From positions 248,001 through 312,000 of the forward strand of contig NZ_BFBR01000001.1 in the NCBI RefSeq assembly GCF_003112735.1: 64,000 nucleotides of DNA, in the 5' to 3' direction. Positions 42,799-63,982 of the stretch are shown piece by piece (within the stretch, counting starts at the first letter, position 1; each line of letters starts with the position of its first letter). A program made the translations under genes and the position numbers. Source of the DNA: Candidatus Phycosocius bacilliformis. Lineage in GTDB: Bacteria > Pseudomonadota > Alphaproteobacteria > Caulobacterales > Aquidulcibacteraceae. The notes beneath the pieces were generated by a model. It was not told where the DNA came from. It saw only the letters and a list, made by a program, of their open reading frames with translations, and did no database searches.

Positions 42799-43530
42799 TC
42801 AGATTGACGGTTTTTCGTTTATGTTTGTTGTCTTTTGAGTGCGTTCTGCAGATTTCAGGCGCACCCATCCCATTGCTGCGCGCCCTTGGTGGAAGATCAG
42901 GCGATCAAAGTTATAGGTCAAACTGGCCAGCGTGAGTTTGGCCTGGGCGCGTGCAAAGCCGATAGTCTGGATGAAGAGCCCGTAGCGGTTCTTCTGATGC
43001 GCGAAGACATGTTCGACCCTGGCGCGGATCGCGGACTTTGCGGCATTGGCGCGCGCCATATGCTCGGGCATCGGCTTACCCTTGGGCTTCCTGCGATGGA
43101 CGCGGCTTTTGAGCATATTGGCCTTAAGCCATGCCTCGTTCTTGCTGCTGCAATAGGCGCTGCCTGCCCAGACATCGCCGGCGGTGTTGGCGGAGTCGAT
43201 TACCCGCCGCAACTGGCGACCGCCGCCATCGGCTGCCGAGGTCACCATCGCCTTGCGGATGATCCCGAACCGCCGATCGATGCTGATATGCGACTTGTAG
43301 CCGAACACCGGCGTTGCAATCTGCGGCAGCGGCGTGGCGTCAGGGCGATAGCGGATCTTGCCCCCGATCTTAAGGGTCCAGCACACATCGACATCCTTCT
43401 GGTACGCCTTGTTGGGTTTGTCGCGGCAATTCTGCTTGGCCGACTTGCCTGCCTTGATGGCGGCCTTCTCTTCCTCGGCATTGCGCTGCTTGGGTGCAGG
43501 TACCAGCGTGGCATCGACGATCTAACCGCG
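42799..43530 (-). pseudogene. IS5-family transposase, 5'-truncated with nonsense codon
   Basis: A minus-strand DDE transposase of the IS5 family. The readable part runs IVDATLVPAPKQRN, then YQKDVDVCWTLK, FGYKSHISID, AYCSSKNEAWLKANM and RVEHVFAHQKNRYGL, covering the second half of the catalytic region and the C-terminus. Just before IVDAT, where Gln is usual, the codon is TAG (complement of 43522-43524), and homology is lost beyond it, so roughly the first third is missing. It lies beside the IS3 remnant and appears inactive. Confidence 0.8.
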
Positions 43531-43925: not shown

Positions 43926-44987
43926 ATGCCCTACATGACACGAACACCATTACGGGTGAGCCTTTTTGGTGGCGGTACGGATTACCCAGATTACTTTAGG
44001 AATAACCCCGGTGGTGTTGTCGGAATGGCGATCGATAAGCATATCTTTATCGCGGCGACGAGGCTTCAAACACCGCTGGAACATAGATATCGTATCGCCT
44101 ACTCCAAGCTCGAGTTGGTCGAAAATCTCAATAGTATTCAGCATCCAGTTGTTAGGTCCGTTCTTATGGACTACGGTGTCGAAGAGGCTCTGGACATCAG
44201 TATCTTGTCTGATCTTCCATCGAGCGGCGGGGGGCTTGGCTCTTCATCAGCCTTTACCGTGGGCTTCGTCAGCCTGATCCGTTCGATGGGCGGTCACCAC
44301 CTAACAAAAATTGATTTGGCACGCGAGGCCATTCGGTTTGAGCGCGACGTTCTGCAGGAAAACGTCGGTGTGCAGGATCAATTGCATGCCGCTTTTGGCG
44401 GCCTAAACCGATTTGACTTTGACGGCGGTAGATTCCGTATTTCGCCAGTCCAACTAACCAGCCACACGATGGAAACTTTGAACTCGTCTTTGTTGCTGAT
44501 TTATACCAACATTTCGCGTCGGGCCACGGATATCGTTGCGACACAATTGGAGGCGACCAAATCGAAGGCCATTGATAAGGACCTGCGTGAACTCTACGAC
44601 ATGGTGGGCGAATGTGTCTCCATTCTGGAGCATGGCGCACAAGTGGTCGAAACACTTGGCAAAATGCTCCATGAGAGCTGGTTGATCAAGCGCAATTTGA
44701 CGTCAAAGGTCTCTAACGACGCGATTGATGACATCTATAGCAAAGCACGCCAAGCCGGAGCCTATGGTGGGAAACTCTGCGGCGCAGGTGGGGGTGGCTT
44801 TGTCTTGGTCGTTGCGCCGCCGTCGAGCCACGAAGCCATCATTCAGGCCGTTTCCCCACTCCAAGTCATTCCCATTTCAATCGACACGCAAGGCTCAACT
44901 GTATTGATGAGCCAACAGAGTCGACCTAATGAGGCAGAAGTCAAGCTATTTGCAGGCTCACAAAAGCCTCCCGCAATGCACAACTGA
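43926..44987 (+). CDS. hddA: GHMP kinase, D-glycero-D-manno-heptose 7-phosphate kinase-like
   Basis: A 353-residue GHMP-superfamily sugar kinase. It opens RTPLRVSLFGGGTDYPDYF, has the ATP loop LPSSGGGLGSSSAFTVG and the C-terminal motif KLCGAGGGGFVLVV, the pattern of HddA, which phosphorylates heptose 7-phosphate at C1 on the way to GDP-D-alpha-D-heptose. Support comes from the HddC-GmhB fusion at the right end of the same cluster. It is the first gene after the IS scars. An L-fucose kinase-like role is a less likely alternative. Confidence 0.82.
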   Translation: MPYMTRTPLRVSLFGGGTDYPDYFRNNPGGVVGMAIDKHIFIAATRLQTPLEHRYRIAYSKLELVENLNSIQHPVVRSVLMDYGVEEALDISILSDLPSSGGGLGSSSAFTVGFVSLIRSMGGHHLTKIDLAREAIRFERDVLQENVGVQDQLHAAFGGLNRFDFDGGRFRISPVQLTSHTMETLNSSLLLIYTNISRRATDIVATQLEATKSKAIDKDLRELYDMVGECVSILEHGAQVVETLGKMLHESWLIKRNLTSKVSNDAIDDIYSKARQAGAYGGKLCGAGGGGFVLVVAPPSSHEAIIQAVSPLQVIPISIDTQGSTVLMSQQSRPNEAEVKLFAGSQKPPAMHN

Positions 44988-45980
<993 letters not shown>

Positions 45981-46092
45981 GCGAAAGTCAGCGGGGCGGG
46001 TTGGGTTCAGCCGCAACGTTCAAGAAGCGCTTTCCAGCCATAAAGCAATCTAGCGGTCACGCGAGAGGCCGTGTTTAAAGGGACACTAGGGT

Positions 46093-47358
46093 ATGAAAAT
46101 TGGTGATACACTAGATATGAAATGTCGGTTTTGTGGCGCACACGAAGTCGAACTCTTCCTCGACCTTGGCGACCAGCCGCATTGCAATCGTCTGGTCCCA
46201 CCAGAACTTGAGAGCGTGAAAGAACCTCATTTTCCACTCCGCGTAGGCTTTTGCCGCAGTTGTTCCGGCGTCCAGATCGATTACACAATTCCGAAAGAAA
46301 ACATGTTTTCGGATTACCCCTATGTGTCGGGCACAACCAAAACACTGCCAGCACATTTTGCGGAAACCTCTGCCAGATTGGTTGAGCGCTATGGTGTGGC
46401 AAGGGGCGCACTCGTCGTCGACATAGGCTCGAATGACGGCACGTGGCTTAAGCAATATGCGCCATATGGCTTGCAGACTTTAGGTGTAGAACCTGCTTCC
46501 AATGTTGCTAAATTGGCCAATGAAGCCGGAATCAACACGTGGAATAAGTTCTTCAACGAAGAAACTGCCGCCGAAATTGTGGCTCAGCATGGGAAGGCCC
46601 AGCTGATCACCGCAGCGGGCGTCTTCTTCCATTTGGAAGAACTCCACAGTGTGTGTAGGGGCATCAAGAATCTGCTGAATGATGATGGCGTGTTTTGCGT
46701 CCAGGCCATTTATCTGGGCGGTATGATTGAAAACATCGCGTTCGACCAAGTCTACCACGAGCACTTGTGCTACTACACACTTAAATCTCTGAATTTCCTA
46801 CTGAATCAACATGGCCTTGAAGTGTTCGACGTCAAGGTCGTTCCGATTCACGGTGGCTCTTTAGAGGCCCATGTGGGCCATATCGGTGCTCGCCAAATTT
46901 CCAACAGCGTCAACGAACTTGCCGCCGACGAAACCGCCAAAGGCCTCGGTAAAATCGAAACCTACCAAGCCTGGGCCAAGATGGTCTGGCAACTGAATCA
47001 TGACCTCGTTGACGAACTCAAAAAATACAAAGCCGAAGGCCGGACCGTTTATTGCTATGGTGCCCCAGCAAAGGGTGCGACCTTGTTGAACTCGTTCAAG
47101 ATCGGCTCTGACTTGGTGAGTTTGGCGGTTGAAAAATCTCCGCTGAAGTTTGGGAAAATGATCCCTGGTGTACGCATTCCAATCGTTGATGAGGCACAAG
47201 TCCCTCGCCCAGACGCTTACCTTGTGCTGTCGTGGAACTTCATCGACGAGTTTCTCATCAAAGAGGCCGACTATTTGAGATCGGGTGGCGAGTTCATCGT
47301 GCCAGTTCCAAAGTTGCGGGTCTATTCGGCAAACGACATCGCAAACATCGAAGCCTAA
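46093..47358 (+). CDS. SAM-dependent sugar C-methyltransferase-like protein
   Basis: A 421-residue three-domain methyltransferase. The N-terminus is a zinc-binding module (CRFCGAHEVELFLDLGDQP and FCRSCSGVQ, two Cys pairs), followed by the SAM domain (VVDIGSNDGTWLKQY, LGVEPASNVA) and a C-terminal Rossmann-like domain with YCYGAPAKGATLLN. This is the arrangement of NDP-hexose C-methyltransferases (TcaB9/TylCIII type), which make branched sugars. An ATG at 46117 (starting MKCRFCG) is an alternative start. The next gene begins 1 bp after its stop. Confidence 0.87.
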   Translation: MKIGDTLDMKCRFCGAHEVELFLDLGDQPHCNRLVPPELESVKEPHFPLRVGFCRSCSGVQIDYTIPKENMFSDYPYVSGTTKTLPAHFAETSARLVERYGVARGALVVDIGSNDGTWLKQYAPYGLQTLGVEPASNVAKLANEAGINTWNKFFNEETAAEIVAQHGKAQLITAAGVFFHLEELHSVCRGIKNLLNDDGVFCVQAIYLGGMIENIAFDQVYHEHLCYYTLKSLNFLLNQHGLEVFDVKVVPIHGGSLEAHVGHIGARQISNSVNELAADETAKGLGKIETYQAWAKMVWQLNHDLVDELKKYKAEGRTVYCYGAPAKGATLLNSFKIGSDLVSLAVEKSPLKFGKMIPGVRIPIVDEAQVPRPDAYLVLSWNFIDEFLIKEADYLRSGGEFIVPVPKLRVYSANDIANIEA

Positions 47359-47359
47359 T

Positions 47360-48286
47360 ATGCAAATCATCCTGTTTGGTGCATCGGGATTTATTGGCCG
47401 AAACCTAGTCCAGCGCTGGCGAGACGAGGATAAGACGGTTATTGCGGTCAACCAAACGGGCCAGGCTGTTGAAGGTGCAGCGCAGACTTTCTCAATAGAT
47501 CGGCTGCGCGACCTCAACTTTGATCCCGTCAAAACGATTGCCGTTCATGTTGCGGCATATCGCTATGACTCATCGCGGTTTGAGCTTAAGCAAAGCGACA
47601 TTTTTGTCCAAAATGTCGCCCTCAATAACAAGGTCTATCAGTTCTGCGCGGAGCGGGGCTTAGCTGAACTCAGAATGGCGAGTTCAGTTGCGGTTTACCC
47701 CGCACACCTCCCCATTATGGATGATGCGAATCCGATAGACCTGAATGCGGCACCCCATGCTGGTGAGGGTTTCTATGCTTGGTCCAAGCGCACCGCCGAG
47801 ATCATGTCTTACTGGTATGAAAAGCAATATGGACTCCATACACTTGGCTTCAGGTTTTCAAACCCATATGGCCCATTTGATAGCGTGGATCCGAATCGGG
47901 CCCATGTTGCACCAGCCTTTGTGATGAAAGCGCTGGATGATAACCCTGTTTTCCCGATCCGCGGTGATCCAGCCGTAGAACGTGACTTTGTTTATGTTGG
48001 AGATGTGGTGGAGGCGTTTGACAGAAGTTTGGCAGAGCGCGGCCGCACCGATTATTATAATCTATGCAGTGGCGGAACGACGACTTTACTCAATTTGGCC
48101 CAAAGAATCATGAAGGTCGCGCAAATAGAAAAGCCGATTGAATCAGGGGCTCCAGGCGCGTTTGGACCAACAATTCGGAAGTCTACCAATCTTCGTATTA
48201 TGAAGGATTTTGGCATGGAATTTAGTTCCCTAGAAGTGGGTATGGCCCCGACAATTGCTTGGTACCGCGAGAATTTTCGTGTTTAG
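47360..48286 (+). CDS. NAD-dependent epimerase/reductase
   Basis: A 308-residue extended short-chain dehydrogenase with GASGFIGRNLVQRW at the cofactor site, the catalytic Ser-Tyr-Lys set (SSVAVYP and YAWSKRTAE) and a C-terminal substrate domain. The ATG at 47360 follows the methyltransferase stop by one base, so earlier in-frame starts inside that gene are unlikely. It may be a C4-reductase or epimerase acting on a keto-sugar. Its end overlaps the next gene's probable GTG start. Confidence 0.85.
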   Translation: MQIILFGASGFIGRNLVQRWRDEDKTVIAVNQTGQAVEGAAQTFSIDRLRDLNFDPVKTIAVHVAAYRYDSSRFELKQSDIFVQNVALNNKVYQFCAERGLAELRMASSVAVYPAHLPIMDDANPIDLNAAPHAGEGFYAWSKRTAEIMSYWYEKQYGLHTLGFRFSNPYGPFDSVDPNRAHVAPAFVMKALDDNPVFPIRGDPAVERDFVYVGDVVEAFDRSLAERGRTDYYNLCSGGTTTLLNLAQRIMKVAQIEKPIESGAPGAFGPTIRKSTNLRIMKDFGMEFSSLEVGMAPTIAWYRENFRV

Positions 48287-49223
48287 CACCGCGCTCGTTG
48301 TCGGTTCGGACGGATTCTTAGGTCGGAATCTTGTCACCCATTTAGAGGCACGCAATGTGGCCGTGTTTCGTATTGGCCGTGATAAGGGTGACCTGAGTCT
48401 GCCTGGCGTTGCCGAGGCAGCGTTTGCAGCCGTCCCGAAAGTGGAGAAAATCTTCCACACAGTGACGCGGCAGCGGACCGGTCCCTCGCAATTCAAATTG
48501 CAGGCAGAGTTGATGCGCATCAACACGCTCCTGCACCTGAATATTCTTGAAGCATGGCAACAAAGCCAGCCACAGGCCAAAATGATTTCGATGGGTTCTT
48601 CGTGCACTTATCCAGAAAGCGATAGCCCGCTTAACGAATCCATGTTTGGTGGTGGCGGTGCCCATCCCTCCGTCTACGGATATGCTCACGGTAAGCTTAC
48701 CATCGCGACCGGAAGCCAAGCCTATGGGCAACAATATGGGTTGAAATGGCTTCACTGCGTCTTGGCAACCATGTTTGGTCCCCATGACAATAAGGCTGAG
48801 GATCGAAGCCATTTTATGGGGGCAATGATCGAGCGCGCCGTGAGAGAAAAGGCGCAGAATTTGCCGAAATTCACAGTCTGGGGCAATCACGAAACTGTCC
48901 GTGAGGTGCTCTATGTCGACGACCAGATCGAGGCGATTCTGGCGGCCGACTCAGCTTTCGAAAACCAGGTCCTTAATGTAGCAGCCAATACGCCTGTCAC
49001 CGTTAAGCAAAGCGCCGAAGCCATCCTTAAGGCGTTGGCGTGGGACGTCCCCATTTCCTCGCCTGAAGGAAGCTTCCAAGGCACGCATTATAAAATGTTA
49101 GACTCAAGTTCTTTCTTAAATACAACAGGTTGGACTCCTAAAATTCCGCTGATAGACGGTGTAAAAAGACTCTTGACGTGCGAATATGCATCCGCAAACA
49201 CAGGCCATAAGATGCCATTGTGA
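48279..49223 (+). CDS. GDP-L-fucose synthase-like reductase
   Basis: A 314-residue short-chain dehydrogenase of the Fcl/WcaG group. It has GSDGFLGRNLV, the near-diagnostic SMGSSCTYPE (compare SSCIYP of GDP-fucose synthase) and YGYAHGKL with the catalytic Tyr and Lys. Enzymes of this group epimerise and reduce GDP-4-keto-6-deoxy sugars; relatives in Campylobacter act on GDP-heptose, which fits this cluster. The GTG at 48279 overlaps the previous stop by 8 bp; there is no ATG at the N-terminus. Confidence 0.8.
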   Translation: MFSTALVVGSDGFLGRNLVTHLEARNVAVFRIGRDKGDLSLPGVAEAAFAAVPKVEKIFHTVTRQRTGPSQFKLQAELMRINTLLHLNILEAWQQSQPQAKMISMGSSCTYPESDSPLNESMFGGGGAHPSVYGYAHGKLTIATGSQAYGQQYGLKWLHCVLATMFGPHDNKAEDRSHFMGAMIERAVREKAQNLPKFTVWGNHETVREVLYVDDQIEAILAADSAFENQVLNVAANTPVTVKQSAEAILKALAWDVPISSPEGSFQGTHYKMLDSSSFLNTTGWTPKIPLIDGVKRLLTCEYASANTGHKMPL

Positions 49224-49384: not shown

Positions 49385-50167
49385 ATGATGAACGAAGCAC
49401 TGAATGATATCCGCGAGGGTGCCTTAAATTGGCGGGCATGGGGCGTATTGGCCACCGATGATCTGCAAGCACGCTATCGTCGCACAGTTTTAGGTCCGTT
49501 CTGGGTGACCATTGCCCATGCGTTTTTTGTTGCTGGCTATGCTTATTGGTCCTCGGCCGTCCTCAAACAGCCTTTGGCGGAAGCGTTTTTGTATGTGGCT
49601 GCAGGCTTAACCGTTTGGGCATTCATCGCGTCATCTTTGTGTGAAGCACCAGGTATTTTTCCGCGAACAGCAGGATTTATCACTTCTTATGACTTACCAA
49701 TCTCGCTTCAGATATTCCGAGTTGTCTTGGGGCAAGTTCTGACGCTTGGCCATAATTTTGTTGTCTATCTGGCAGCACTTGCCTTCGTGGGAACTTGGCC
49801 GGGCATGGTGGCCTTTATGGCAATCCCCGGACTGATTGTTGTCAGCCTTGCCTGTGTCAGTTGGTCTTTCTTCCTGTCGATCCTAGGCGCACGCTATCGC
49901 GACGTCGGCCCGCTCTTGAACAGCGTCGTGGGCATGTTGATGATCATGACGCCCGTGTTCTGGCGGAAAGCCGACATTGGTTCAGCCACTTGGCTGGCGG
50001 AGGCCAATCCAATTTACCACCTCATTGAGCTGATCCGAGCCCCCCTATTGGGTAACATGCCCACGGCGGTAAATTGGGCAGCATCTTTGACGGTGGTTGC
50101 CGTCTGCACCGTCATTTCCTTGGTCGCTTTTGTAAGACAGCGCCGCAACATTACCTATTGGTTGTAA
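49385..50167 (+). CDS. Polysaccharide ABC-2 exporter permease (Wzm/KpsM type)
   Basis: A 260-residue membrane protein with six predicted helices (from about residue 35), preceded by an amphipathic N-terminus with DDLQARYRRTVLGPFW, characteristic of Wzm/KpsM/TagG permeases. Near the end YHLIELIRAPLLG is also typical. It exports a finished polysaccharide across the inner membrane together with the ATPase that starts 4 bp downstream. The presence of an ABC rather than Wzx/Wzy system means the chain is completed in the cytosol. Confidence 0.9.
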   Translation: MMNEALNDIREGALNWRAWGVLATDDLQARYRRTVLGPFWVTIAHAFFVAGYAYWSSAVLKQPLAEAFLYVAAGLTVWAFIASSLCEAPGIFPRTAGFITSYDLPISLQIFRVVLGQVLTLGHNFVVYLAALAFVGTWPGMVAFMAIPGLIVVSLACVSWSFFLSILGARYRDVGPLLNSVVGMLMIMTPVFWRKADIGSATWLAEANPIYHLIELIRAPLLGNMPTAVNWAASLTVVAVCTVISLVAFVRQRRNITYWL

Positions 50168-50171
50168 GCCC

Positions 50172-51005
50172 ATGACCTCAAGCCTTATTTTGGACAGAGC
50201 AGCCGTCAGCTATCCTGTATTCACGGCAAGTCGGCACCAGTCGGTCTTAACAGCGGCAGCTGGTCTTTTGTCGTTTGGCAAAGTTCGTCGCGACGTCGAA
50301 GGCATAAAGGTCGTCGATGCCATCCGTGGCATATCCCTAAACCTAAGTGAGGGTGCGCGTGTTGGCCTGATTGGCCGCAATGGTTCCGGGAAGTCGACGT
50401 TGTTGCGACTTTTGGCAGGCATTCACCTGCCGACACGGGGCAAGCGGACAGTGAAGGGTAGAATTTCTACCGTGTTGTCGCACATAGCTGGTTTGGACGC
50501 CGAAAAGAGTGGGCGCGAAAATGTAGCCTTCATTTGCCGGATATTTGGCTTGAGCAGCGCGCAGTCGTCAAACATCATAAATGAGATCGAGACGTTTGTA
50601 GAGCTCGGCGAATTTTTCGATATGCCATTGCGGACCTATTCAGCGGGCATGCAAGTTCGTATCAGTTTTGCTTTGGCAACGACCATGCCAGGCGAAATTT
50701 TGCTGATCGATGAAGTGCTGGCCGCCGGGGATGCGCATTTCATGACCCGCGCGGCTGAACGCCTCCAAAAGCGAGCGGCGGAAGCTCGGATCATGGTGCT
50801 TGCCACCCATTCGCCAACCCAATTATTTGAGTTCTGCGACTTAGCTATCTGGCTTGATTCCGGTGAGATCGTGGCATGTGGCAAACCTGAAGAAGTCTGG
50901 GCGCAATATGCTGCGGCAGGTGAGGAGATTCCGCCACCTTTGAAACGAGCTGTCGTTACGTGGCCTAGCCCCTCTGCAGTACGGCAAGAAAGAAAAGTTG
51001 GCTAG
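50172..51005 (+). CDS. Polysaccharide ABC exporter ATPase (Wzt/KpsT type)
   Basis: A 277-residue ATP-binding subunit. Walker A is GRNGSGKSTLLRLLAGI, followed by the polysaccharide-specific LSHIAGLDAEKSGRENV, Walker B ILLIDEVLAAGD and H-loop ATHSP. The signature is RTYSAGMQVRISFAL. It lacks the roughly 150-residue C-terminal carbohydrate-binding domain of O9a-type Wzt, so it is the short KpsT-like form that does not read a terminal sugar modification itself. It is paired with the permease (4-bp gap). Confidence 0.92.
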   Translation: MTSSLILDRAAVSYPVFTASRHQSVLTAAAGLLSFGKVRRDVEGIKVVDAIRGISLNLSEGARVGLIGRNGSGKSTLLRLLAGIHLPTRGKRTVKGRISTVLSHIAGLDAEKSGRENVAFICRIFGLSSAQSSNIINEIETFVELGEFFDMPLRTYSAGMQVRISFALATTMPGEILLIDEVLAAGDAHFMTRAAERLQKRAAEARIMVLATHSPTQLFEFCDLAIWLDSGEIVACGKPEEVWAQYAAAGEEIPPPLKRAVVTWPSPSAVRQERKVG

Positions 51006-53573: not shown

Positions 53574-53652
53574 CACTCTATCTTCTCGGCAAGCTCTGAA
53601 ACTGCTGGTAAGAGTGAGTCGGTGCCGCTTAGCATGCCTCAAGCCTTTGGAT

Positions 53653-54930
53653 ATGATCGTGAAGCCTCGCCTCTTTTTGGTAGACCCCTATTTGAGGAGC
53701 GGGCTTGGGCATACGGCAGACCTCGCACGGCTCTATCTTGATTTGGCAGAAGGAGATGGCCTAGCGCCTGTGATCGTCCTGCCGGCAGGTTCGCAGATGC
53801 GCGATGCATTTGGCGACTATCGTGTCGACATGCTAGCCCCTGATCCCGGCGAAGCGATACGCCCACCCGATCATCCTAACACCAGCAGGCACACCGATCG
53901 GCTGCCCCACTTCCTGCGCACGGCGATCCGCCGTGTGTCTCGGCATTGGTTTGGCGATAGGGCCCACGAAAATTTTTTGATCGAGCAATCAACCCAATTG
54001 TCGGATAAGGTGCAAGATTGGTTTGCCACAATCGACTTTCATCCCCGTGACCATCTGTTTTTCCCAACCCTATCCTGGGCCGAAGCCATGCGAGTGGCAG
54101 AGGCCTTCGAAGCACATCTGAGGCGGCGGCCGGTTGTTGATGTGCAATGCAGCCTGATGTTGCGTTTTGATCCGCCACGATACAGCAAGGGCCGCCGGTT
54201 TATGGCGCGCAAGGCACCTTTTAGCCCACAGATCCACTTTGTAAGCGACACGCGTCAATTGGCCGAAGCCTACTCGACGATCCTCAACAAGAAAGTGTCG
54301 CAAATCTTGATCCCGATCGAACCGACCCTTGTAAGTGGGGAGACGTCGCAGGCCAAAAGAAGACCAGCACGCATCGCTTTTCTAGGTGAATCGCGGACAG
54401 AGAAACGTTTTGACAAGCTTCCCGAGATCATTGAAGCGTTTCGCAGCCTGAAAACTCAAGAGCCCGTGCAATTCTATGTGCAACATGCACCCGTTGCTTC
54501 CCAAGATCAGGCAAAGTTAGCGAAGGTCGCCGACCGCCTGCGCGCGATGCAGGATGATGATCTGGTTGTTGTCAGCGGCACGCATTCAACCGAGGAATTC
54601 ATAGCCCTCCTCAAGTCTGCCAGCGTTGTTCTGGCACCTTATCGTGTGGCAAATTACCGAAGGCGTTCATCTGGGCTGGTGATTGGCGCACTCGCGGCGG
54701 GTGCAGTTGTGGTCGCCGAAGCTGGGCGGTCTTGGCTTAGTAGCTCTATAGACAAGGACGAGCAGACCAAGAGGCTGTCGCTGTTCCACGGCGGTTCAGC
54801 GAAACAAATTGCACGGGCCATAGCAAAGGCCCTTCAGTTGAAAGACGAAATCCATACGGGATATCAATTTCCTCCTCAGCCCAAGCCTTGGCCCGAGCCT
54901 GGAATTATGCCACCCACAAGTGACCTTTGA
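53653..54930 (+). CDS. GT-B-fold glycosyltransferase (GT4-like)
   Basis: A 425-residue protein starting MIVKPRLFLVDPYLRSGLGH. The C-terminal half has the GT-B nucleotide-binding layout: IAFLGESRTEKRFDKLPEII, VSGTHSTEEFIALLKSASVVLAPY and SGLVIGALAAGAVVVAEAG, like family 4 glycosyltransferases. No membrane helix is present, so it acts in the cytosol or at the membrane face. The ribosome-binding site is weak; a GTG at 53614 is an alternative start. It is one of three glycosyltransferases of the cluster. Confidence 0.75.
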   Translation: MIVKPRLFLVDPYLRSGLGHTADLARLYLDLAEGDGLAPVIVLPAGSQMRDAFGDYRVDMLAPDPGEAIRPPDHPNTSRHTDRLPHFLRTAIRRVSRHWFGDRAHENFLIEQSTQLSDKVQDWFATIDFHPRDHLFFPTLSWAEAMRVAEAFEAHLRRRPVVDVQCSLMLRFDPPRYSKGRRFMARKAPFSPQIHFVSDTRQLAEAYSTILNKKVSQILIPIEPTLVSGETSQAKRRPARIAFLGESRTEKRFDKLPEIIEAFRSLKTQEPVQFYVQHAPVASQDQAKLAKVADRLRAMQDDDLVVVSGTHSTEEFIALLKSASVVLAPYRVANYRRRSSGLVIGALAAGAVVVAEAGRSWLSSSIDKDEQTKRLSLFHGGSAKQIARAIAKALQLKDEIHTGYQFPPQPKPWPEPGIMPPTSDL

Positions 54931-55106: not shown

Positions 55107-57977
55107 ATGCACATATTGCTGATTTGCGCCGGGCAGACATACAAAGCGGTAAGTGAAGCATTTTTATACGCATTGCGCTTGCGTGAAGACCCCGAGATAG
55201 AGCTGACCATTGTATCCAATGGTATAAAGCTGGCGCTTGAGTTATTCCCCGATTTCAAGCGAACACAGACCAAACTCATATCGGCTGAGCTGGATAATCC
55301 TTTTGCGTTAGGCCCGCCCTATCGAGCCGGCTCCTGCGTTGCGATGGCCAAGCGAAATGCGGCACGCATTGCTGCAGCTGTTGCCAACTGTAAATTTGAT
55401 AGGGTGGAGGTTTTAGACACCTGTTTGGTGGGCCCGTATCTCCAACCAGCCCTCAATTTCTATCAGGTTGGCTGGAAGCACCTTGTGCTTGCCTTGAAAG
55501 GTGGGCAATCATCATCGAGCCATCGCCTGCCTGAAAACGCGCAAAAAGAGCTTGAGTCTCTTCTGAACCAACAATTAGGGGCAGCTGACCATTATTATTC
55601 ACTCGACCCTGCCATCCGCGACGAAACGCATCGTGGCAAGACGATCTCTTGGATTGACCCTTGGTCCCAATTGCCCAGGCAGGCACAAAACCTCCGAAAC
55701 CATGGCGCACACAAACCCGACGTCCCTGTAACCATTCACCTTCACGACCCAATGGATCCGGTCTCGTTTGAGGCGATTAGATGGCTGCCAGTACCTAAAT
55801 CCGCGCGCGATCGACCACACTTTCGAACGACCTTCATATGTGAGGATCAGAGCCCATCTCGAAGTCAAATCGAACAGCAGGCCGCCTCACGCGACCTGAG
55901 CATCGAAGAAGTCCCTGCATCACCGTTTGAAGATGCGGTAAATGGCCTCAAATCAAACAGCCTTGTTCTCGCAACAAGGCATCTCGCGTCCATTGAATTG
56001 ACCTTGCTCAATTATGTGGCGGCCGGTGTACCGGTCTTGCTGGCAAAAGGATCCCCAACGGCTGATTTTCTTTGCAGGTCAAAAATTGGACATCTGATTG
56101 ACGTTTTCGACCCAGCTCACGCAGAAGATTGTGCCGATGCCCTTGTTTCCATTTTAGAGAATTGGGAAAGCAAGAAACAAAATGCCGCGGAGGCAGCAAG
56201 TCTCGTCGTCCAGGGATTGAAGCCAGGCTCCCCCCTCGCCTACGATCGTAAAATCCAATCGGAAGCCCCAAGCGATCCGGCCGCAGAAGCGCGTGAAGCG
56301 TTTGAGCACTATGCCCGCCTCGAGGCCAACTGGTTGCATGTCCTCAAGAAACAGGCGCGCCATTTTATCATGCGGCTGCCGCCGGAGGCACAAGTGCGCA
56401 AAATAGCCCGTAAGGCGCGTTCGATCTTGGCACCAAAATCCCGGCGGCCCCAATTTGAAACCTATCTCACAAGGCTTGGTGCGATCGGTGAGAACAATCT
56501 GCATGAGTTTGATCGAAGCCTTCTTCGAAGCGACGGCGATCTGGGATACGCTAAAGGCCGTTGCAAGGTTTGGGCGGAGTTGGCACGGCTGGAGCGCGCT
56601 TGTGGCAACCGTTTGACGGCTGCTGCCTATGATATTCGCATTATGCGGGCTGCGCATGCAGATCCCTATGGGCGTTTATCCCTCGTCCAAGGTGAATTGT
56701 CGGCAGCCAACCTCGGTCATATCGCAAAATCGCTCCCGCTCCTTGTTTCACAGCAACCCCATGACGCTTTAGAAGACCTGGTGCCACCTATTGATCCTAA
56801 GCAAGAGGACACGAACCCCGCGAGCTTTCAGATTTTCGATGACCGAATTGGAGACATCCGAAAAGTGGGGATTATTGTATCGCTCTATAAAGTTAGCCAA
56901 GATCGGCTCTTGTCATTTATCAAATTGCTTGGACGACAAACCCTTGTGCGCCGAGGGCAAGTCGAACTGATCCTGGTGGATGCAGGCGACAGCGCGGGTT
57001 CGCGCGACTTGGTTCAAGCACTGGATCAACAACTCGCCACGGGCCTAGTCTATGCTAAATCCGCGTGCCGTGTGACGATTCAAGCCGCTTGGAATGAAGG
57101 CATAAAGCTCGCGCGGGCACCCTATCTGTGTTTCCTCGGTGTGGACGAAGCGCTCTATCCGACCGCCCTTGAGGAGCTTAGTCAGAAGCTGGACCAGTCA
57201 CCGTCTCTCGACTGGGTTATGGCATCTAGCCTCGTTACCGAAGTCAATGAAAAAGGCCAACTCATTCAGGACAAGACATTTTTTTACCGTGGCGACATCT
57301 CTGCCGATACGACCTATCTTGAAACCTGCAGTGTCTCATGGGTTGGCGGGATGTATCGGCGCGCGATACATGACCGCGTCGGCTATTACGACGGCCGTTT
57401 TTATGCTGCCGGTGACACCGAGTTCAAAATGAGGACCTTAGGAGCCCTAAATGTTGGCTTTGTCCCGAAAACTCTCGGCGTCTTCCGTGACTATCCTGAA
57501 GCGCGCGCGAGCGGCGGCGTACTCGCAGAGCTTGAAGATACTTTGGCATGGTACGCCTATCGTTCATTGGGCGGCGCAAGCTTTACTTTTAGGAATGTTT
57601 CAAATGCACGACTTGAACATTTGATACATCAATGCGGCGGTTACCGAAAATGCTATAGCCAGAGCATAAGCACGGATGTCAATCTGGGCTTTGTGCTCTG
57701 CAATCTGCTCGCCTTGCGGCAATCAGACATGCCTGGACTGCCCAAGTTAAAAGACTTCTTCCACAAGCGGATGCTCGAGTTTCGCGACTATGACTTTGGC
57801 GGCCGTTTCGAACCCCATGCGGAAAGCCAATTACCGAATGCCTCACGGCTTTCTAGCATCAACAAGCAGTTCAAAGATCTCACAGGTGTCGAAGGACAAT
57901 TCTTTGGTCTGAATGACAACCGATACGAACAGCACAACTGGATTTGGCCAGCGGGCACCGAACCAAAGCCTTTTTAA
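55107..57977 (+). CDS. Large two-domain glycosyltransferase (GT-B-like plus GT2)
   Basis: A 956-residue soluble protein. The N-terminal 400 residues look like a divergent GT-B domain (HILLICAGQTYKAVSEAFLYAL; late motif SLVLATRHLASIELTLLNYVAAGVPVLLAKG). Residues about 410-585 are a helical linker with a repeat-like ERACGNRLTAAAYDIRIMRAA. From about 587 a GT2 domain begins (VGIIVSLYKVSQDRL, ILVDAGDSAGS, metal site FLGVDEALYP near residue 679, FYAAGDTEFKMR near 770). The end (LNDNRYEQHNW) is shared with the convergent 1055-residue enzyme. It probably adds two successive sugars in one polypeptide. Confidence 0.85.
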   Translation: MHILLICAGQTYKAVSEAFLYALRLREDPEIELTIVSNGIKLALELFPDFKRTQTKLISAELDNPFALGPPYRAGSCVAMAKRNAARIAAAVANCKFDRVEVLDTCLVGPYLQPALNFYQVGWKHLVLALKGGQSSSSHRLPENAQKELESLLNQQLGAADHYYSLDPAIRDETHRGKTISWIDPWSQLPRQAQNLRNHGAHKPDVPVTIHLHDPMDPVSFEAIRWLPVPKSARDRPHFRTTFICEDQSPSRSQIEQQAASRDLSIEEVPASPFEDAVNGLKSNSLVLATRHLASIELTLLNYVAAGVPVLLAKGSPTADFLCRSKIGHLIDVFDPAHAEDCADALVSILENWESKKQNAAEAASLVVQGLKPGSPLAYDRKIQSEAPSDPAAEAREAFEHYARLEANWLHVLKKQARHFIMRLPPEAQVRKIARKARSILAPKSRRPQFETYLTRLGAIGENNLHEFDRSLLRSDGDLGYAKGRCKVWAELARLERACGNRLTAAAYDIRIMRAAHADPYGRLSLVQGELSAANLGHIAKSLPLLVSQQPHDALEDLVPPIDPKQEDTNPASFQIFDDRIGDIRKVGIIVSLYKVSQDRLLSFIKLLGRQTLVRRGQVELILVDAGDSAGSRDLVQALDQQLATGLVYAKSACRVTIQAAWNEGIKLARAPYLCFLGVDEALYPTALEELSQKLDQSPSLDWVMASSLVTEVNEKGQLIQDKTFFYRGDISADTTYLETCSVSWVGGMYRRAIHDRVGYYDGRFYAAGDTEFKMRTLGALNVGFVPKTLGVFRDYPEARASGGVLAELEDTLAWYAYRSLGGASFTFRNVSNARLEHLIHQCGGYRKCYSQSISTDVNLGFVLCNLLALRQSDMPGLPKLKDFFHKRMLEFRDYDFGGRFEPHAESQLPNASRLSSINKQFKDLTGVEGQFFGLNDNRYEQHNWIWPAGTEPKPF

Positions 57978-58009
57978 CTCTGTTGTGGAGAGCTAATTGT
58001 CTTTTCTTC

Positions 58010-61000
58010 TCAAGAACTCCAAGAATGCCAGTGTTGTTCGAAACGGTTATCATTCACGATTTCATACCTAGGTCGATTTCCAAGACCAAATTTACTTTGA
58101 TCGGAGACTTCTTGTTTCTTTGCGGCTGCCAATATCTCTAAAACAGCCAATCGGCGCTCAGCAGGAGATAACCGCATGTCAATGTCGGTGATTGATCGGA
58201 TAAACTGGTTCATTCTGACGGTTGACGACACAGCTTCGCGCGCGAATTCAGGATTCTCATTACGCTCAACCATATACTGCGCAACAACTTCAGCCATCTC
58301 AAAGTCAGTGCTAAAGTGCCCGCAGAAGGACTTGCGATAGCCGAGACAGCTTTTAAAGAAAGCCTCTACTTCCTTGATAGGCTGATTATCCCAAACATAA
58401 GCAACGCCTGCTTTCGTGCGGTAAACATACCAAGCTCGCAAGTCCTCGATTTCTGCACGCGGGTGTTGAGTCGTCCTTTCCTCCGGGTAATTCAGGAACA
58501 AGCCAAGAGCGGCCTTGATACGTTTTGATTTCAAATGAGGCAGCATTCTTGACTTGAATTCAGTGTCACCGGCTGCACTGAAAGTTTCATCATACATACC
58601 AAATCGTTCGTGGATCGACCGACGATACAGTCCCCCCACCCAACTCAAGTAACACGTGTCGAGATAAACTAAGCCTTGATTATAGCCATCTCGATTATAG
58701 ATCATCACGTCAGACTTGAAAGTACCACGCCGATCAACCTCGGTCATGACGGTATCTGCCATGACCCAGTCAACTTCCTGGTCTTCATCAAGCTCCTTGG
58801 AGAGTATTTCAAAAGCGCGTGGATGAACGCCTTCATCCACTCCCAAGAAGCTCAAATACTCACCTTTTGCCAGAGCAATCCCGCGGTTCCAAGCCGACTG
58901 GATAGTTTCGCGGTTCTTTGTTCGCACGTATAATGCTGGTAATGGCAATTCTGCCATGAGTTCCTTAAAGACTTCGTACTCGTTTGTTGGGGATCCGCTA
59001 TCAACGAGGATAATTTCAATTTCATCAACTGCCATGAGAGTCTGCGCTGAAAGTTGGCGTAAGAACAAGGGCAGCTTTGATGCCGCATTATACAAAGACA
59101 CGATAACGCTCACGCGCGGACGATTCGAGCTTCGCCGATCGTCCTTGATCGCAAAGGAACCCGACTTTTTGATCTTTTGACTTTCAAACTGAGTTGCCAG
59201 TAGGGCTTGAACTCGTGCATTTGTTTGGCTTTGATCCTCAAAAAGAGCTCGCGCAACCTCTGCCACCTTTCCAAAGCCACCCTTCTCAAGTGCGCGCACA
59301 ACGAAGTCCAAATCGTTGTGGTGATCGACACCTGCCCAGCGCATCAGTCGCAGTGCATACGTCGCAGCCACAATGTCACCGCCGCTTCGCTTTCTCTCGA
59401 GGCGCATCAGTTCGCGGAATAACAAATTCCGTCCAACAAGCCGAGAAGGAATTTCGCTGGCGAGCGTCTTCAACTTGGTGACAATCTCCTTTTGAGTTCG
59501 TTCGGGCAGATGCAGGCTGCGATAGCGGGTTCCTTCTATGTCCTCAGCAGCAGGAACCATCTCTAAAGCACGATCGGACCGATCCGAAACTTCTTGGCTT
59601 AATTTAGCAATGAGGCCGTGAATTCGGTTAGGGTCATTGTAGCCAGGCTGTAATGCGACATCTTTTGGAGGAGGAAGTCGTTTTTGCTGGACTTTGCCCG
59701 TACGGAAATCATGATAGGCATAGGCGATACCCCGTAACGGAGACGTGAGAATAGCCTTCTTCCACGACGGTAATTCTGGCGAGAACCCGCGGTATCCTGG
59801 CGTATGAGGGAATGCGGATGAATCCGACTGTGGGCGGTCGTGGCTAATATCCCGGGGACGATTAAATGAATTTAGCCGGGCTTGAAGCATCGACCTATAC
59901 TCGCGCGCAGACTGACAAATTTTGTCGGCAGGCTGGTACATACTCGCCAAACTTTCCAGATTTGCTTGGAGGTTTGCCCGTTGAACAGCCTGAACCAGCC
60001 TTTCTCGTTCGCCATCGTAGTCGCTCAAAATTTGAATGAGCGCCTTATCTAAGGCACGTGCACCACCTAAATCAAAAACAAGATGGGACAACTCAGGTAG
60101 ATGCGTCTCAATCCATCTCGAGATACCTGCTCCTCTGCTAACAAGTACTGGAGCGCCTAATCTGATTGCCTCCAATGCAACCAAGTTAAACGTATCGGCG
60201 CGGCTTGGCACAACCACAACAGTTCGTTCAGAAAAAATTTCATCCAGCTTCGCGCGGGGCAAACTCTTAAGGATTTGAATATCTAACCCACGAAGCTTTG
60301 CCATGGCGGCAAGGCGTGGATCACCACTAACCCCACTATAGCCTGTTGATTCTGAACCAATTAGCATCGCCCGATTATACGATGCCCGATCCACTGACCA
60401 AAGGGCATCAACAAAAATGTCAGGGCCCTTGGTGCGTTCGCGACGCCCGATGAACGCCAAACTTGGCCGCTCGATACCGCAGGCAATTTTGGGATTCATG
60501 GGCCCAACCATCAATAGCGGGTCGATGTAATTGGCTTCGTACCCACCACTTTTCCTGGTCCACTCTTGACCGTAAGCTTCGCTCAGCGCGTAGCGGCTAT
60601 CAACAGATCGATACTGCAGATGCTCCCTAACACGTAACTCGGCCATAAATCTCTGCGGTGTTTTTTGACCCCATTCTTGAGAAAATGCGGACGAAATTGT
60701 TCCATGAAGAGCCAGACTTACGCTACCAACCCGGATGCCATGCATTTTCATGGCGTCTTCTATAAACAAGCCGGCGAGAGTATAATCTGGTGTATCAACA
60801 ACATCTATCTCGATATTCGCAAAATGCTCTGCAAAAGAGCGGGCGTACTGCCAAGCTTGAATATAATCAGAATAAAAATATCCGATCTCAGCGGGCAAGT
60901 CTCCGACATTGTAGCGATAATAATGATTAAACGGAATTATAGTGCAATTAGGAGGCCTAGTGGCCTTTTTTGTCTCTTTTTCCACAAAATAAAAGAAATG

Positions 61001-61177
61001 GACGTCAGGTCTGTTACGAATAATGGCTTGATAGGAAGTTTGCCCTCCACCAACGTCAGAAAAAATATCATTGGCAAGAATCAAAACATTAGAGTTGTAC
61101 TCTTTTTTTGCTTGTTTTTGCGTTCCCATCTTCTCGTTGGCCCCATCGGACGGCACAAGTAAAGCTTCGACTGTCAT
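58010..61177 (-). CDS. Large two-domain glycosyltransferase (GT4 plus GT2), paralogue of its neighbour
   Basis: A 1055-residue soluble protein. Residues about 28-420 are a canonical GT4 domain (FSDVGGGQTSYQAI, LAFIGRRERTKGPDIFVDAL, VVVPSRADTFNLVALEAI with the two conserved glutamate/aspartate positions). A helical middle with RLERKRSGGDIVAATYALRLM precedes a GT2 domain from about 686 (VSVIVSLYNAASKL, FLGVDEGVHP, FSAAGDTEFKSRM). The C-terminus ends VNDNRFEQHWHSW. The GT2 half is clearly homologous to that of the gene at 55107, but the N-terminal half is not. Base composition is visibly AT-richer than the flanks, suggesting recent acquisition. Tail-to-tail spacing to its paralogue is 32 bp. Confidence 0.88.
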   Translation of the reverse strand: MTVEALLVPSDGANEKMGTQKQAKKEYNSNVLILANDIFSDVGGGQTSYQAIIRNRPDVHFFYFVEKETKKATRPPNCTIIPFNHYYRYNVGDLPAEIGYFYSDYIQAWQYARSFAEHFANIEIDVVDTPDYTLAGLFIEDAMKMHGIRVGSVSLALHGTISSAFSQEWGQKTPQRFMAELRVREHLQYRSVDSRYALSEAYGQEWTRKSGGYEANYIDPLLMVGPMNPKIACGIERPSLAFIGRRERTKGPDIFVDALWSVDRASYNRAMLIGSESTGYSGVSGDPRLAAMAKLRGLDIQILKSLPRAKLDEIFSERTVVVVPSRADTFNLVALEAIRLGAPVLVSRGAGISRWIETHLPELSHLVFDLGGARALDKALIQILSDYDGERERLVQAVQRANLQANLESLASMYQPADKICQSAREYRSMLQARLNSFNRPRDISHDRPQSDSSAFPHTPGYRGFSPELPSWKKAILTSPLRGIAYAYHDFRTGKVQQKRLPPPKDVALQPGYNDPNRIHGLIAKLSQEVSDRSDRALEMVPAAEDIEGTRYRSLHLPERTQKEIVTKLKTLASEIPSRLVGRNLLFRELMRLERKRSGGDIVAATYALRLMRWAGVDHHNDLDFVVRALEKGGFGKVAEVARALFEDQSQTNARVQALLATQFESQKIKKSGSFAIKDDRRSSNRPRVSVIVSLYNAASKLPLFLRQLSAQTLMAVDEIEIILVDSGSPTNEYEVFKELMAELPLPALYVRTKNRETIQSAWNRGIALAKGEYLSFLGVDEGVHPRAFEILSKELDEDQEVDWVMADTVMTEVDRRGTFKSDVMIYNRDGYNQGLVYLDTCYLSWVGGLYRRSIHERFGMYDETFSAAGDTEFKSRMLPHLKSKRIKAALGLFLNYPEERTTQHPRAEIEDLRAWYVYRTKAGVAYVWDNQPIKEVEAFFKSCLGYRKSFCGHFSTDFEMAEVVAQYMVERNENPEFAREAVSSTVRMNQFIRSITDIDMRLSPAERRLAVLEILAAAKKQEVSDQSKFGLGNRPRYEIVNDNRFEQHWHSWSS

Positions 61178-61607: not shown

Positions 61608-62741
61608 ATGAGTATGGATCGATTTGAGACTGAAGTCGTGATTATAGGCGCGGGGGTAGTAGGCTTGGCCTGTGGTGCCGCGTTTGCACGTACTGGTGCT
61701 GAAACGATTGTCTTGGAATCTGAGTCTCATATTGGTTCCGGCATTTCTTCGCGGAATAGCGAAGTGATCCATGCTGGCATTTATTATCCAACCGATAGCC
61801 TTAAGCACCAAAGCTGCATTGAAGGACGTCGAGCGCTTTACCAATACGCCGACGAACGCGGCCTTTCGTATAAAAAGTGCGGCAAGCTTATTGTCGCGAC
61901 TTCAGAAGCCGAGGATATGGCCATTGAAAGCCTCGCTCAACGCGGATCCGCAAATGGCGTTGAAGGTTTGAACCGTCTTTCCCGCGACCAAGCCACGCGA
62001 CTTGAGCCTGAACTCTTTTGCACCAGCGCATTACACTCGACACAGACAGGCATTATCAACTCACATGGCTTTATGTTGGCACTCCAGGGCGAGATTGAAG
62101 ACAATGGGGGGCATGTCATTTGTCAGTCCAAGGTTGATCAGGTCACCATGCTTGCGGATGGTCGCTTTGAGCTGAGCGTGCTTGGCCCCACACCAGCAAA
62201 ACTGGTGTGCGAGAAGCTGGTAAATGCGGCAGGCTTGCACGCCCAGGATGTCGCGGGGCGGATGGAGTTTCTTCCAGCGTCCTTGATCCCGCGCCTCTTC
62301 CTCGCCAAGGGGTCATACTTTCAATGCACCACAAAGGCTGCATTCTCGAGATTGATTTACCCAGCACCGGTCGATGGCGGCCTTGGCGTCCATGTGACGC
62401 TAGACATGCAGGGTCGGATGAAGTTTGGCCCCGACGTTGAATGGTTAGACCACGCCGACCCTAGTCAGGTGACATATAACGTCGATTTGTCACGTGCGAG
62501 CCAATTTTATCAAGCTATCCGAAGATATTGGCCGGGTTTACCGGATGGGGCAATCGTCGCGGATTATGCTGGCTGCCGTCCAAAATTATCGGGGCCCGGC
62601 GTGCCAGCTGCGGATTTCATGATTCAAGGGCGCGACGCGCATTTTATCAATGGTCTCATCAATCTGTTCGGCATTGAGTCGCCAGGTTTGACTGCGAGTC
62701 TCAGCATCGCATCCCATGTCTACCAACAGCTGAAAACCTAA
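61608..62741 (+). CDS. FAD-dependent oxidoreductase, L-2-hydroxyglutarate oxidase (LhgO)-like
   Basis: A 377-residue flavoprotein of the D-amino-acid-oxidase fold. The FAD Rossmann motif is IGAGVVGLACGAAFARTG, followed by ISSRNSEVIHAGIYYP, which is characteristic of the L-2-hydroxyglutarate dehydrogenase/oxidase group, and a C-terminal NLFGIESPGLTASLSIA. LhgO oxidises L-2-hydroxyglutarate to 2-oxoglutarate. Similar proteins occur in surface-polysaccharide loci with unknown substrates, so the name should be taken at family level. It is 14 bp upstream of the heptose enzyme fusion, so cotranscribed. Confidence 0.82.
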   Translation: MSMDRFETEVVIIGAGVVGLACGAAFARTGAETIVLESESHIGSGISSRNSEVIHAGIYYPTDSLKHQSCIEGRRALYQYADERGLSYKKCGKLIVATSEAEDMAIESLAQRGSANGVEGLNRLSRDQATRLEPELFCTSALHSTQTGIINSHGFMLALQGEIEDNGGHVICQSKVDQVTMLADGRFELSVLGPTPAKLVCEKLVNAAGLHAQDVAGRMEFLPASLIPRLFLAKGSYFQCTTKAAFSRLIYPAPVDGGLGVHVTLDMQGRMKFGPDVEWLDHADPSQVTYNVDLSRASQFYQAIRRYWPGLPDGAIVADYAGCRPKLSGPGVPAADFMIQGRDAHFINGLINLFGIESPGLTASLSIASHVYQQLKT

Positions 62742-62755
62742 GTTGGACCAAAACC

Positions 62756-63982
62756 ATGCATGTAAAACAAGCGGTATTTCTGGTAGGTGGAAAAGGGACG
62801 CGCCTCGGCAGTCTTTCGCGCGACACGCCGAAACCACTTTTGGAAATTGATACAAACCTGCGCTTCATCGATGTCTTGCTTGAAGAAGCTGCCCGCCACG
62901 GTTTTACCGATCTTATCCTGCTCGCAGGGCATTTGAGCGACAAAGTCATTGCCGCCTATGACGGAAAGATCGTTCATGGTGCCAAAGTTCGTGTCCTGGT
63001 GGAGCCGAGCCCCGCAGGGACTGGGGGAGCTTTGCGTTGGGCAAATCCCGTGCTCGACCCATGGTTCCTAATGGCCAATGGTGACAGTCTGTTTGACATA
63101 AATCTGCGTGCATTTGCCACGCATGTTTCTGACGACTTTACCGCCCGTGTTGCCTTGCGTCGGGTAGACGATCCGGCGCGATATGGCGCTGTTCAACTGA
63201 AGAAAAATAAAATTACTGGGTTTTTGGAAAAGAACGCAAATCTTGTGGGGCCAACACTGATCAATGGCGGTGTCTACCTGATGTCACGCACGGTGCTGAA
63301 CTTGATCGACGGCCCCTGCTCTCTCGAGCAAGATATCTTTCCCCAATTGGTTGAACAAGGAAAGCTCGAAGGCGTTGAACATGAAGGTTACTTTCTCGAC
63401 ATGGGACTGCCCGAGACCTATGCAACAGCACGGGTAGAGATACCGCAACGTCGGCGTCGTCCAACCGTATTCCTAGATCGAGATGGCGTTCTCAATCACG
63501 ATGAAGGATATACGCATCGTGTGGCTGATCTGCATTGGATAGATGGAGCCAGGCAAGCCATTCGGGCTATCAATGATGCGGGCTATTTGGCCATCGTGGT
63601 CAGCAATCAGGCTGGCATCGCCCGTGGACTTTACGATGATGACGCTGTGATGAAATTTCATGCGGCGATGCAAGATCAATTAAGCGAAGTGGGCGCACAC
63701 ATCGATGCATTCTACTTCTGCCCGTACCATAAAGACGCTCAAATTGATCATTATCGAGCTGAAAATCATCCTGACAGAAAACCAAATCCAGGCATGTTGT
63801 TGCGCGCAATGGCCGACTGGCCGATTGATTGTGACAAGTCTTTCTTGATTGGCGACCAAGCAACAGACATAGCCGCAGCGGAAGCGGCTGGCATTCCGGG
63901 TCATCTCTTTGATGGTGGGAATTTAGAATCGACCGTGATGAAGCTCTTTGACCAAGGAAAACACAGCCGATGGGAAGCCTAA
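62756..63982 (+). CDS. Fusion of heptose 1-phosphate guanylyltransferase and heptose bisphosphate phosphatase (HddC-GmhB)
   Basis: A 408-residue bifunctional enzyme. Residues 1-225 are a nucleotidyltransferase (VFLVGGKGTRLGSLSRDTPKPLLEI, LMANGDSLFD, GGVYLM), like HddC, which makes GDP-heptose. Residues about 235-400 are a HAD phosphatase of the GmhB type (FLDRDGVLNHDEGY, VVSNQAGIARGLY, YFCPYHKD, RKPNPGML, GDQATDIAAAEAAG). Together with the HddA-like kinase this covers three of the four steps from sedoheptulose 7-phosphate to GDP-D-glycero-D-manno-heptose. The missing isomerase GmhA may lie just past the window edge. Confidence 0.88.
   Translation: MHVKQAVFLVGGKGTRLGSLSRDTPKPLLEIDTNLRFIDVLLEEAARHGFTDLILLAGHLSDKVIAAYDGKIVHGAKVRVLVEPSPAGTGGALRWANPVLDPWFLMANGDSLFDINLRAFATHVSDDFTARVALRRVDDPARYGAVQLKKNKITGFLEKNANLVGPTLINGGVYLMSRTVLNLIDGPCSLEQDIFPQLVEQGKLEGVEHEGYFLDMGLPETYATARVEIPQRRRRPTVFLDRDGVLNHDEGYTHRVADLHWIDGARQAIRAINDAGYLAIVVSNQAGIARGLYDDDAVMKFHAAMQDQLSEVGAHIDAFYFCPYHKDAQIDHYRAENHPDRKPNPGMLLRAMADWPIDCDKSFLIGDQATDIAAAEAAGIPGHLFDGGNLESTVMKLFDQGKHSRWEA

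Follow-up and report, generated by a model that had tools for sequence, protein, structure and literature searches.

Dual glycosyltransferase (GT) polymerases are central to polysaccharide assembly that depends on ATP-binding cassette (ABC) exporters. WbbY, the dual-GT polymerase of Klebsiella O1, works with a Wzm/Wzt pair that lacks a terminal-sugar-binding module (PMC11231755, PMC10629545; here and below, what is taken from cited papers refers to the available parts of their text). Its mutation E318A inactivates the α-1,3-galactosyl module, and the β module still adds one residue (PMC10629545). In this study, we analyzed a stretch of 64,000 nucleotides from Candidatus Phycosocius bacilliformis (NZ_BFBR01000001.1, positions 248,001-312,000; hereafter the window, to which all coordinates refer), in which two large genes, encoding P0001 and P0002, are convergent and lie tail to tail, 32 bp apart. 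Judging from their sequences, we lean slightly towards the reading that the two proteins are diverged copies of one GT4-linker-GT2 enzyme, of which P0002 would be a two-linkage polymerase and P0001 would combine a GT2 domain with a dead, scaffold-like GT4 domain. The open reading frames (ORFs) and their parts are as follows.

55107-57977, plus strand: P0001, 956 amino acids (aa)
55107..56246, plus strand: P0001 residues 1-380, degenerate GT4-like (GT-B) domain (weak Pfam match; homology to the N domain of P0002)
55986..56012, plus strand: P0001 A294...N302, position of the E-x7-E carboxylates that are lost (aligned with WbbY E318/E326 and P0002 D328/E336)
56247..56855, plus strand: P0001 linker, with LERxxGxxxxAAxYxxRxMR at residues 495-514 (BLASTP; no Pfam match above chance)
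56856..57524, plus strand: P0001 GT2 domain, with the catalytic Asp in AAGDTEF and with FLGVDE replacing DxD (PF00535, E 4.1e-11)
57525..57974, plus strand: P0001 C-terminal tail, with the end NDNRYEQH at 57912-57935 (BLASTP; no Pfam match)
58010-61177, minus strand: P0002, 1055 aa
59888..61099, minus strand: P0002 residues 27-430, apparently intact GT4 domain with GGGQT, GRRERTKGPD, and DTFNLVALEA (PF20706, 8.4e-15; PF00534, 1.3e-13)
59126..59887, minus strand: P0002 linker with LERKRSGGDIVAATYALRLMR (sequence alignment)
58463..59125, minus strand: P0002 GT2 domain (PF00535, E 2.1e-18)
58013..58462, minus strand: P0002 C-terminal tail, with the end NDNRFEQH at 58031-58054 (alignment and codon pattern)

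Two relatives from other genomes were compared with the pair. In P0003 (970 aa), the GT4-linker-GT2-tail order is complete; this protein is encoded by a genome of another genus of the same family (G027) and was the sole full-length relative found in another genome. The other, from genome G940 (L012:8794-11037, plus strand, 747 aa), is a shorter GT4-GT2 fusion without the long linker; its GT4 domain is 30% identical to that of P0002, and its layout is possibly ancestral. As the WbbY sequence, we used the homologue ECSMS35_RS11410 of E. coli SMS-3-5 (740 aa). WbbY is 99% identical to EcSMS35_2255 of this strain (PMC4237132), and ECSMS35_RS11410 was taken as the homologue because of this figure, the neighbouring pyruvyl-transferase gene, and its residue 318, an E that heads an E-x7-E. 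Like P0002, it shows in Pfam a GT4 domain (218-373) followed by a GT2 domain (415-581), with carboxylates in the same columns; the GT4-GT2 dual polymerase is, with WbbY, a known kind of protein. WbbY differs, however, in the distance from the end of the Pfam GT4 match to the start of the GT2 match, which is 41 residues, as against 291 in P0002, 229 in P0001, 245 in P0003, and 64 in the G940 protein. Its similarity to P0002 amounted to only 41 and 38 bits, and the cited accounts of WbbY, in their available parts, mention no degenerate partner (PMC11231755, PMC10629545). What appears from these sequences to be new is the linker of 230-290 aa and the C-terminal tail, both without Pfam cover, and the pairing of a catalytic with a pseudo-GT4 protein.

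Several other systems are similar in part. WbbM of O2a is likewise a single protein with two GT modules, next to a binding-module-less Wzm/Wzt (PMC11231755), but its E. coli homologue ECSMS35_RS11480, assigned as such because glf and the ABC genes adjoin it, combines DUF4422 with GT8 instead of GT4 with GT2. ORF6 of Klebsiella O7 is a large multi-module protein of an ABC pathway whose second GT2 module has a natural NxD, but it consists of two GT2 modules with a coiled-coil and a methyltransferase-kinase (PMC11231755). Cj1432 of Campylobacter, a multidomain capsule protein in an ABC pathway with a heptose-bearing capsule, has a GT4 N-module, whereas its second part is a predicted ribose-5-phosphate transferase (PMC11800397). 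In PDB, the GT2 part was matched best by chondroitin synthase (2z86, 2z87; E 4.2e-12). That enzyme is a GT-A bimodular protein with two GT2-type modules, unlike the GT4 plus GT2 of this pair. In GtfA/GtfB of serine-rich-repeat glycosylation, a GT4-fold partner is non-catalytic beside an active one, but this is Gram-positive protein glycosylation and involves no GT2.

BLASTP aligned the C-terminal 477 aa of P0001 and P0002, from the LER linker through the GT2 domain to the end NDNR[YF]EQH, with 36% identity (277 bits, E 9e-83). In the LER cassette, 31 of 92 positions are identical, in GT2 96 of 224, and in the tail 35 of 145. GT2 plus tail had a Smith-Waterman score of 622, whereas the highest score among 300 shuffles was 64; chance similarity of the two halves was ruled out by BLASTP and this test. 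The motif LERxxGxxxxAAxYxxRxMR is exact in P0001 and has one extra residue in P0002. A preliminary description of this DNA had given the coordinates, the convergence, and the spacing exactly; its claim of alike C-terminal GT2 halves with a common linker cassette was borne out by this alignment, which contains every motif it named. The domain search that it proposed matched the GT domains in Pfam, whereas the linker and tail fragments gave nothing above chance there (PHROGs and PADLOC were not searched). NCBIfam, searched with whole proteins only, gave matches within the two GT domains, a few of which reached about 30 residues into the linker end. Within the genome that holds the window, the codon pattern of NDNR[YF]EQH is confined to the ends of these two genes; G027 has one occurrence and G940 has none, and among 190 sampled genomes of the class the genome of the window was the sole match.

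The catalytic Asp of the GT2 domain (AAGDTEF) is kept in P0001, P0002, and P0003 and was aligned with GHEDWEF of WbbY; a segment of chondroitin synthase matched this alignment likewise, at -1.3 bits, which is non-significant alone. The metal motif is G-V-D, in which the first Asp of DxD is replaced by Gly and the last Asp is kept. Because the Klebsiella O7 polymerase carries its natural NxD in a GT2 module (PMC11231755), such a variant alone does not mean inactivity.

At the N-terminus, P0002 and P0003 exceeded the Pfam cut-offs for both GT4 and the following GT2; P0001 exceeded that for GT2, while its GT4 match was below the cut-off (Glycos_transf_1, E 0.002). A second BLASTP match joined the N domains of P0001 and P0002 (299 columns, 22%, E 1e-9). 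In the shuffle test, they scored 129 against a mean of 35 and a maximum of 59 in 300 shuffles (z 18.7). For the P0001 N domain, z was 14.6 against that of P0003 and 8.3 against that of G940 (score 86; weak, since one shuffle reached 83), and the control with the GT-B-like protein at 53614 gave 0.6. A search of 249 genomes of the order with this domain by itself (E<=1e-4) matched only the domain, P0002, and P0003, and in PDB it gave one chance-level match (E 0.56). By these comparisons, the N domains of P0001 and P0002 represent a single homologous domain that has diverged strongly in P0001; their assignment to unrelated families was ruled out by BLASTP, the shuffle test, and the search of the 249 genomes.

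An active GT4 has the E-x7-E carboxylates and the R/K donor-phosphate residues. We compared these columns in P0001, P0002, P0003, the G940 protein, and the WbbY homologue. The columns of WbbY E318, E326, R232, and K237 hold D, E, R, and K, respectively, in P0002, P0003, and G940, but A, N, H, and M in P0001. P0002 thus has its GT4 carboxylates as D-x7-E, and all four active-site columns checked in P0001 depart from an active GT4. A profile built from four N domains, among them that of P0001, matched the solved glycosyltransferase 3c4q (E 2.7e-12), which was deposited as 'predicted glycosyltransferases' and which we take to be MshA; in this match, the GRxxxxKGP and (D/E)-x7-E blocks stayed in register. 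The frame of P0001 is open across 956 codons and intact over about 380 codons of the N domain; a frameshifted relic was ruled out by this open frame. The best 19-residue hydropathy mean, 1.56 in the N domain of P0001, is just below the 1.6 customary for a membrane span, so that there is no clear membrane span. AlphaFold models of full-length P0001 and P0002, each built from a two-row alignment, had a mean predicted local distance difference test (pLDDT) score of 33.7 and 32.9, and the helices that they draw along the linker have no proof value at this confidence.

In Tajima's test with G940 as the outgroup, the N domain of P0001 had more unique changes than that of P0002 (74 v 32, p 4.5e-5) or that of P0003 (72 v 28, p 1.1e-5), while P0002 and P0003 had 46 and 45. 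In GT2, the counts were 15 v 9 for P0001 and P0002 (p 0.22), 16 v 10 for P0001 and P0003 (p 0.24), and 12 v 12 for P0002 and P0003. With WbbY as a more distant outgroup, the N domains gave 52 v 23 (P0001 and P0002, p 0.0008), 38 v 26 (P0001 and P0003, p 0.13), and 24 v 43 (P0002 and P0003, p 0.02); GT2 gave 16 v 6 (p 0.033), 9 v 12 (p 0.51), and 2 v 16 (p 0.001) for the same pairs. Furthermore, four-taxon trees without WbbY joined P0001 with P0003 for both the N domain (bootstrap 66) and GT2 (bootstrap 84). On these sequences, the common split fits a duplication predating the divergence of the two lineages and lends weak support to a single history of both halves, with a caveat from the WbbY-rooted trees of five taxa, which carry no support values: P0001, P0002, and P0003 stay together in the GT2 tree, whereas G940 falls inside the trio in the N tree.

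Relatives were sought in overlapping genome samples, with at most 4, 4, and 2 candidates scored per genome for order, class, and phylum. The C-terminal cassette was found in 2 of 60 genomes of the family (E<=1e-15), namely its own with both copies and G027, and in the same two among 398 of the order (E<=1e-30). The cassette profile matched only its own genome among 385 of the class (E<=1e-20), and the full-length profile matched 2 of 398 of the phylum (E<=1e-25), its own and G940, the latter in the GT4 part only. Because the samples overlap and few candidates were scored per genome, these counts indicate but do not prove that the layout is rare. Contig scans with P0002 and P0001 gave no relatives, which is weak evidence of rarity as the scans are based on exact short peptides. 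In viral contigs, 78 pattern-matched stretches encoded no relative by tblastn, and no place in plasmids or phages covered 80% of the query; among the plasmid and phage matches listed (20 and 60 of 90, 10 of 16, and 40 of 144 records), almost all were generic GT2 and one was a GT4 (mshA). In a literature search mostly outside subscription journals, the string NDNRYEQH was not found, nor did titles and abstract beginnings give a paper on a paired pseudo-GT4 polymerase. A GT2-GT4-GT4-GT2 entry (PMC9124407) was rejected as a fusion precedent, being a gene-cluster label in the available text.

The following genes of the window surround the pair.

43926..44987, plus strand: HddA-like heptose-7-phosphate kinase (GHMP; NF049969, 127 bits, E 1.1e-36, below the cut-off of 600)
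45048..49223, plus strand: short-chain dehydrogenase/reductase (SDR), C-methyltransferase, SDR, and SDR, genes for sugar modification that are also kept next to P0003 in G027
49385..50167, plus strand: Wzm-like ABC permease (NCBIfam galactan Wzm, 190.6 bits, below the cut-off of 380)
50172..51005, plus strand: Wzt-like ABC ATPase, 277 aa (best NCBIfam match galactan Wzt, 224.7 bits, below the cut-off of 400)
53614..54930, plus strand: GT-B-like glycosyltransferase (Pfam 1.8e-05, below the cut-off; 34-36% match in the G027 locus)
62756..63982, plus strand: HddC-GmhB-like fusion of nucleotidyltransferase and phosphatase in one ORF (NCBIfam)

The adjacent ABC exporter named in the preliminary description is indeed a Wzm/Wzt-like pair of the O-polysaccharide type. 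The ATPase had no match to a carbohydrate-binding domain in Pfam at E up to 0.1, as in exporters whose Wzt lacks the C-terminal binding domain; it is 34% identical over 200 aa to the 246-aa Wzt-like protein beside glf of E. coli SMS-3-5, and the permease is 24% identical to its counterpart there. In O2a, export by a binding-module-less ABC exporter is coupled to synthesis (PMC11231755), and the missing module suggests that the two are probably coupled here as well.

In G027, the block beside P0003 contains an SDR (70%), the C-methyltransferase (about 75-76%), two further SDRs (55% and 70%), the 53614-type glycosyltransferase (36%), and a partial HddA (54%). Related C-methyltransferases are common, with matches in 15/60 genomes (E<=1e-60), of which G027 was the sole close match (others 31-39%), and the 53614-type glycosyltransferase in 3/60 genomes of the family, namely its own, G027, and, weakly, G052 (9e-11). 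In contig L006 of G027, at about 6562-7022, the matches to the HddA-like kinase and the C-methyltransferase lack their N-termini at one common junction, which is an inversion or an assembly break. The HddC-GmhB fusion scored 100.9 bits for NF049965 (cut-off 300), 144 for NF006506 (178), and 118.6 for TIGR01656 (84.15), and a relative of 53% identity is located elsewhere in G027 in a longer open frame (819 aa). As a guanosine diphosphate (GDP)-heptose pathway, HddA, HddC, and GmhB had matches below the equivalog cut-offs. GalE in the cluster and RmlC, RmlB, RmlD, and RmlA, 1.2-4.6 kb right of the window, were above the NCBIfam cut-offs.

Other genes were also observed in this region. A transposase DDE-domain ORF (42799-43386, minus strand; PF01609, 2.1e-10) marks the left border of the polysaccharide cluster; the G+C content falls from about 57% on the far side of this ORF to about 52% in the cluster and 48% in P0002, and this drop suggests an acquired island. 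A DUF2793 protein (52267-53502, plus strand; 6.7e-24) lies between a methyltransferase and a glycosyltransferase, and a flavin adenine dinucleotide-type oxidoreductase akin to L-2-hydroxyglutarate oxidase (61608-62741, plus strand; NF008726, 2e-56, below the cut-off) between P0002 and the heptose fusion.

The homologous N domains, the lost GT4 columns, the faster N domain of P0001, and the kept GT2 Asp favour duplication and decay, as the simpler account of these sequences, over domain shuffling. The latter, put forward in the preliminary description, would have joined a conserved linker-GT2-tail cassette to two different N-terminal glycosyltransferase domains, and we consider it improbable. 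The P0001 N domain is indeed further from that of P0002 (21%) than the G940 N domain is (30%), though G940 lacks the long linker, and the placing of G940 inside the trio in the rooted N tree, unlike the GT2 tree, points the same way; but the N domains are significantly homologous, no closer relative of that of P0001 appeared in the 249 genomes or, beyond chance level, in PDB, P0003 has the same domain order, and the four-taxon trees agree, with distances that fit a fast P0001 branch. The canonical GT4 of P0002 and the divergent GT-B of P0001 stood, by Pfam, as described, whereas their description as different domains did not. The layout, for which the same description knew of no family, is known in its GT4-then-GT2 order from WbbY, so that a described architecture covers it in part; the linker and tail lack a Pfam match, and the search that it proposed for the same linker and NDNR ending found P0003 in G027 and no other in the sampled genomes. 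A polymerase of a disaccharide repeat, as it suggested, is plausible for P0002 on the residues retained, but P0001 is unlikely to make two linkages with its GT4 residues gone. Some GT-B families lack E-x7-E, and the N frame of P0001 is intact; it is nevertheless unlikely that both N domains are catalytic, with that of P0001 re-purposed for another, perhaps inverting, mechanism and four linkages made, as the donor-site R and K columns were lost besides both carboxylates. That P0001 is a decaying gene heading for loss is still harder to believe: its GT4 residues are lost and its N domain evolves faster, but the frame is open throughout, the GT2, linker, and tail motifs are intact, and GT2 had no significant rate excess with the G940 outgroup, although it had one relative to P0002 with WbbY.

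It is conceivable, though we doubt it, that P0001 and P0002 act at different steps, such as adaptor or side-chain addition, and are not a polymerase pair. The opposite strands, the single such match in G027, and the further GT-B-like gene in the cluster speak for this, whereas the strong similarity of linker and tail points to a complex or acceptor common to both. Duplication and decay to a polymerase with a scaffold-like partner has several points against it. The opposite strands give no operon evidence of partnership, and with one match in G027 the pair is not obligatory there. P0002 has D in place of the E of WbbY at the first GT4 carboxylate, and the GT2 domains lack the first Asp of DxD. 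The rate asymmetry is less clean with the WbbY outgroup, and the rooted N tree breaks the trio. The HddA, HddC, and galactan ABC matches are below curated cut-offs, and the AlphaFold models do not settle the fold, the linker, or the site geometry.

Under duplication and decay, P0001 and P0002 would serve in the cytosolic assembly of a surface polysaccharide. P0002, which seems to keep both active sites with small variations, is most likely a WbbY-like dual polymerase: on a lipid-linked chain, its GT4 would add one sugar in a retaining reaction and its GT2 another in an inverting one. P0001, with an apparently active GT2, may contribute one linkage, while its N domain, as a pseudo-GT4, may position the chain or the partner protein. 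The neighbouring Wzm/Wzt pair would export the chain, presumably an O-polysaccharide with a C-methyl sugar that derives from heptose. As building blocks, deoxythymidine diphosphate-rhamnose and a GDP-linked, C-methylated sugar of heptose origin are likely, the latter being proposed mainly because the sugar cassette travels with P0003 in G027. More tentatively, the two proteins may form a catalytic/pseudo-catalytic complex, in which the GT4 half of P0001 has turned into a scaffold or chain binder and the LER linker and NDNR[YF]EQH tail are a new docking module, between P0001 and P0002 or to the ABC exporter, that sets repeat order or chain length. The papers cited, in their available parts, do not settle what fixes the order of the repeats and the length when there is no terminator. 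This natural pair, in which one copy lacks the very residue mutated in WbbY, would allow a comparison of whether a dead GT module can be a scaffold or chain binder.

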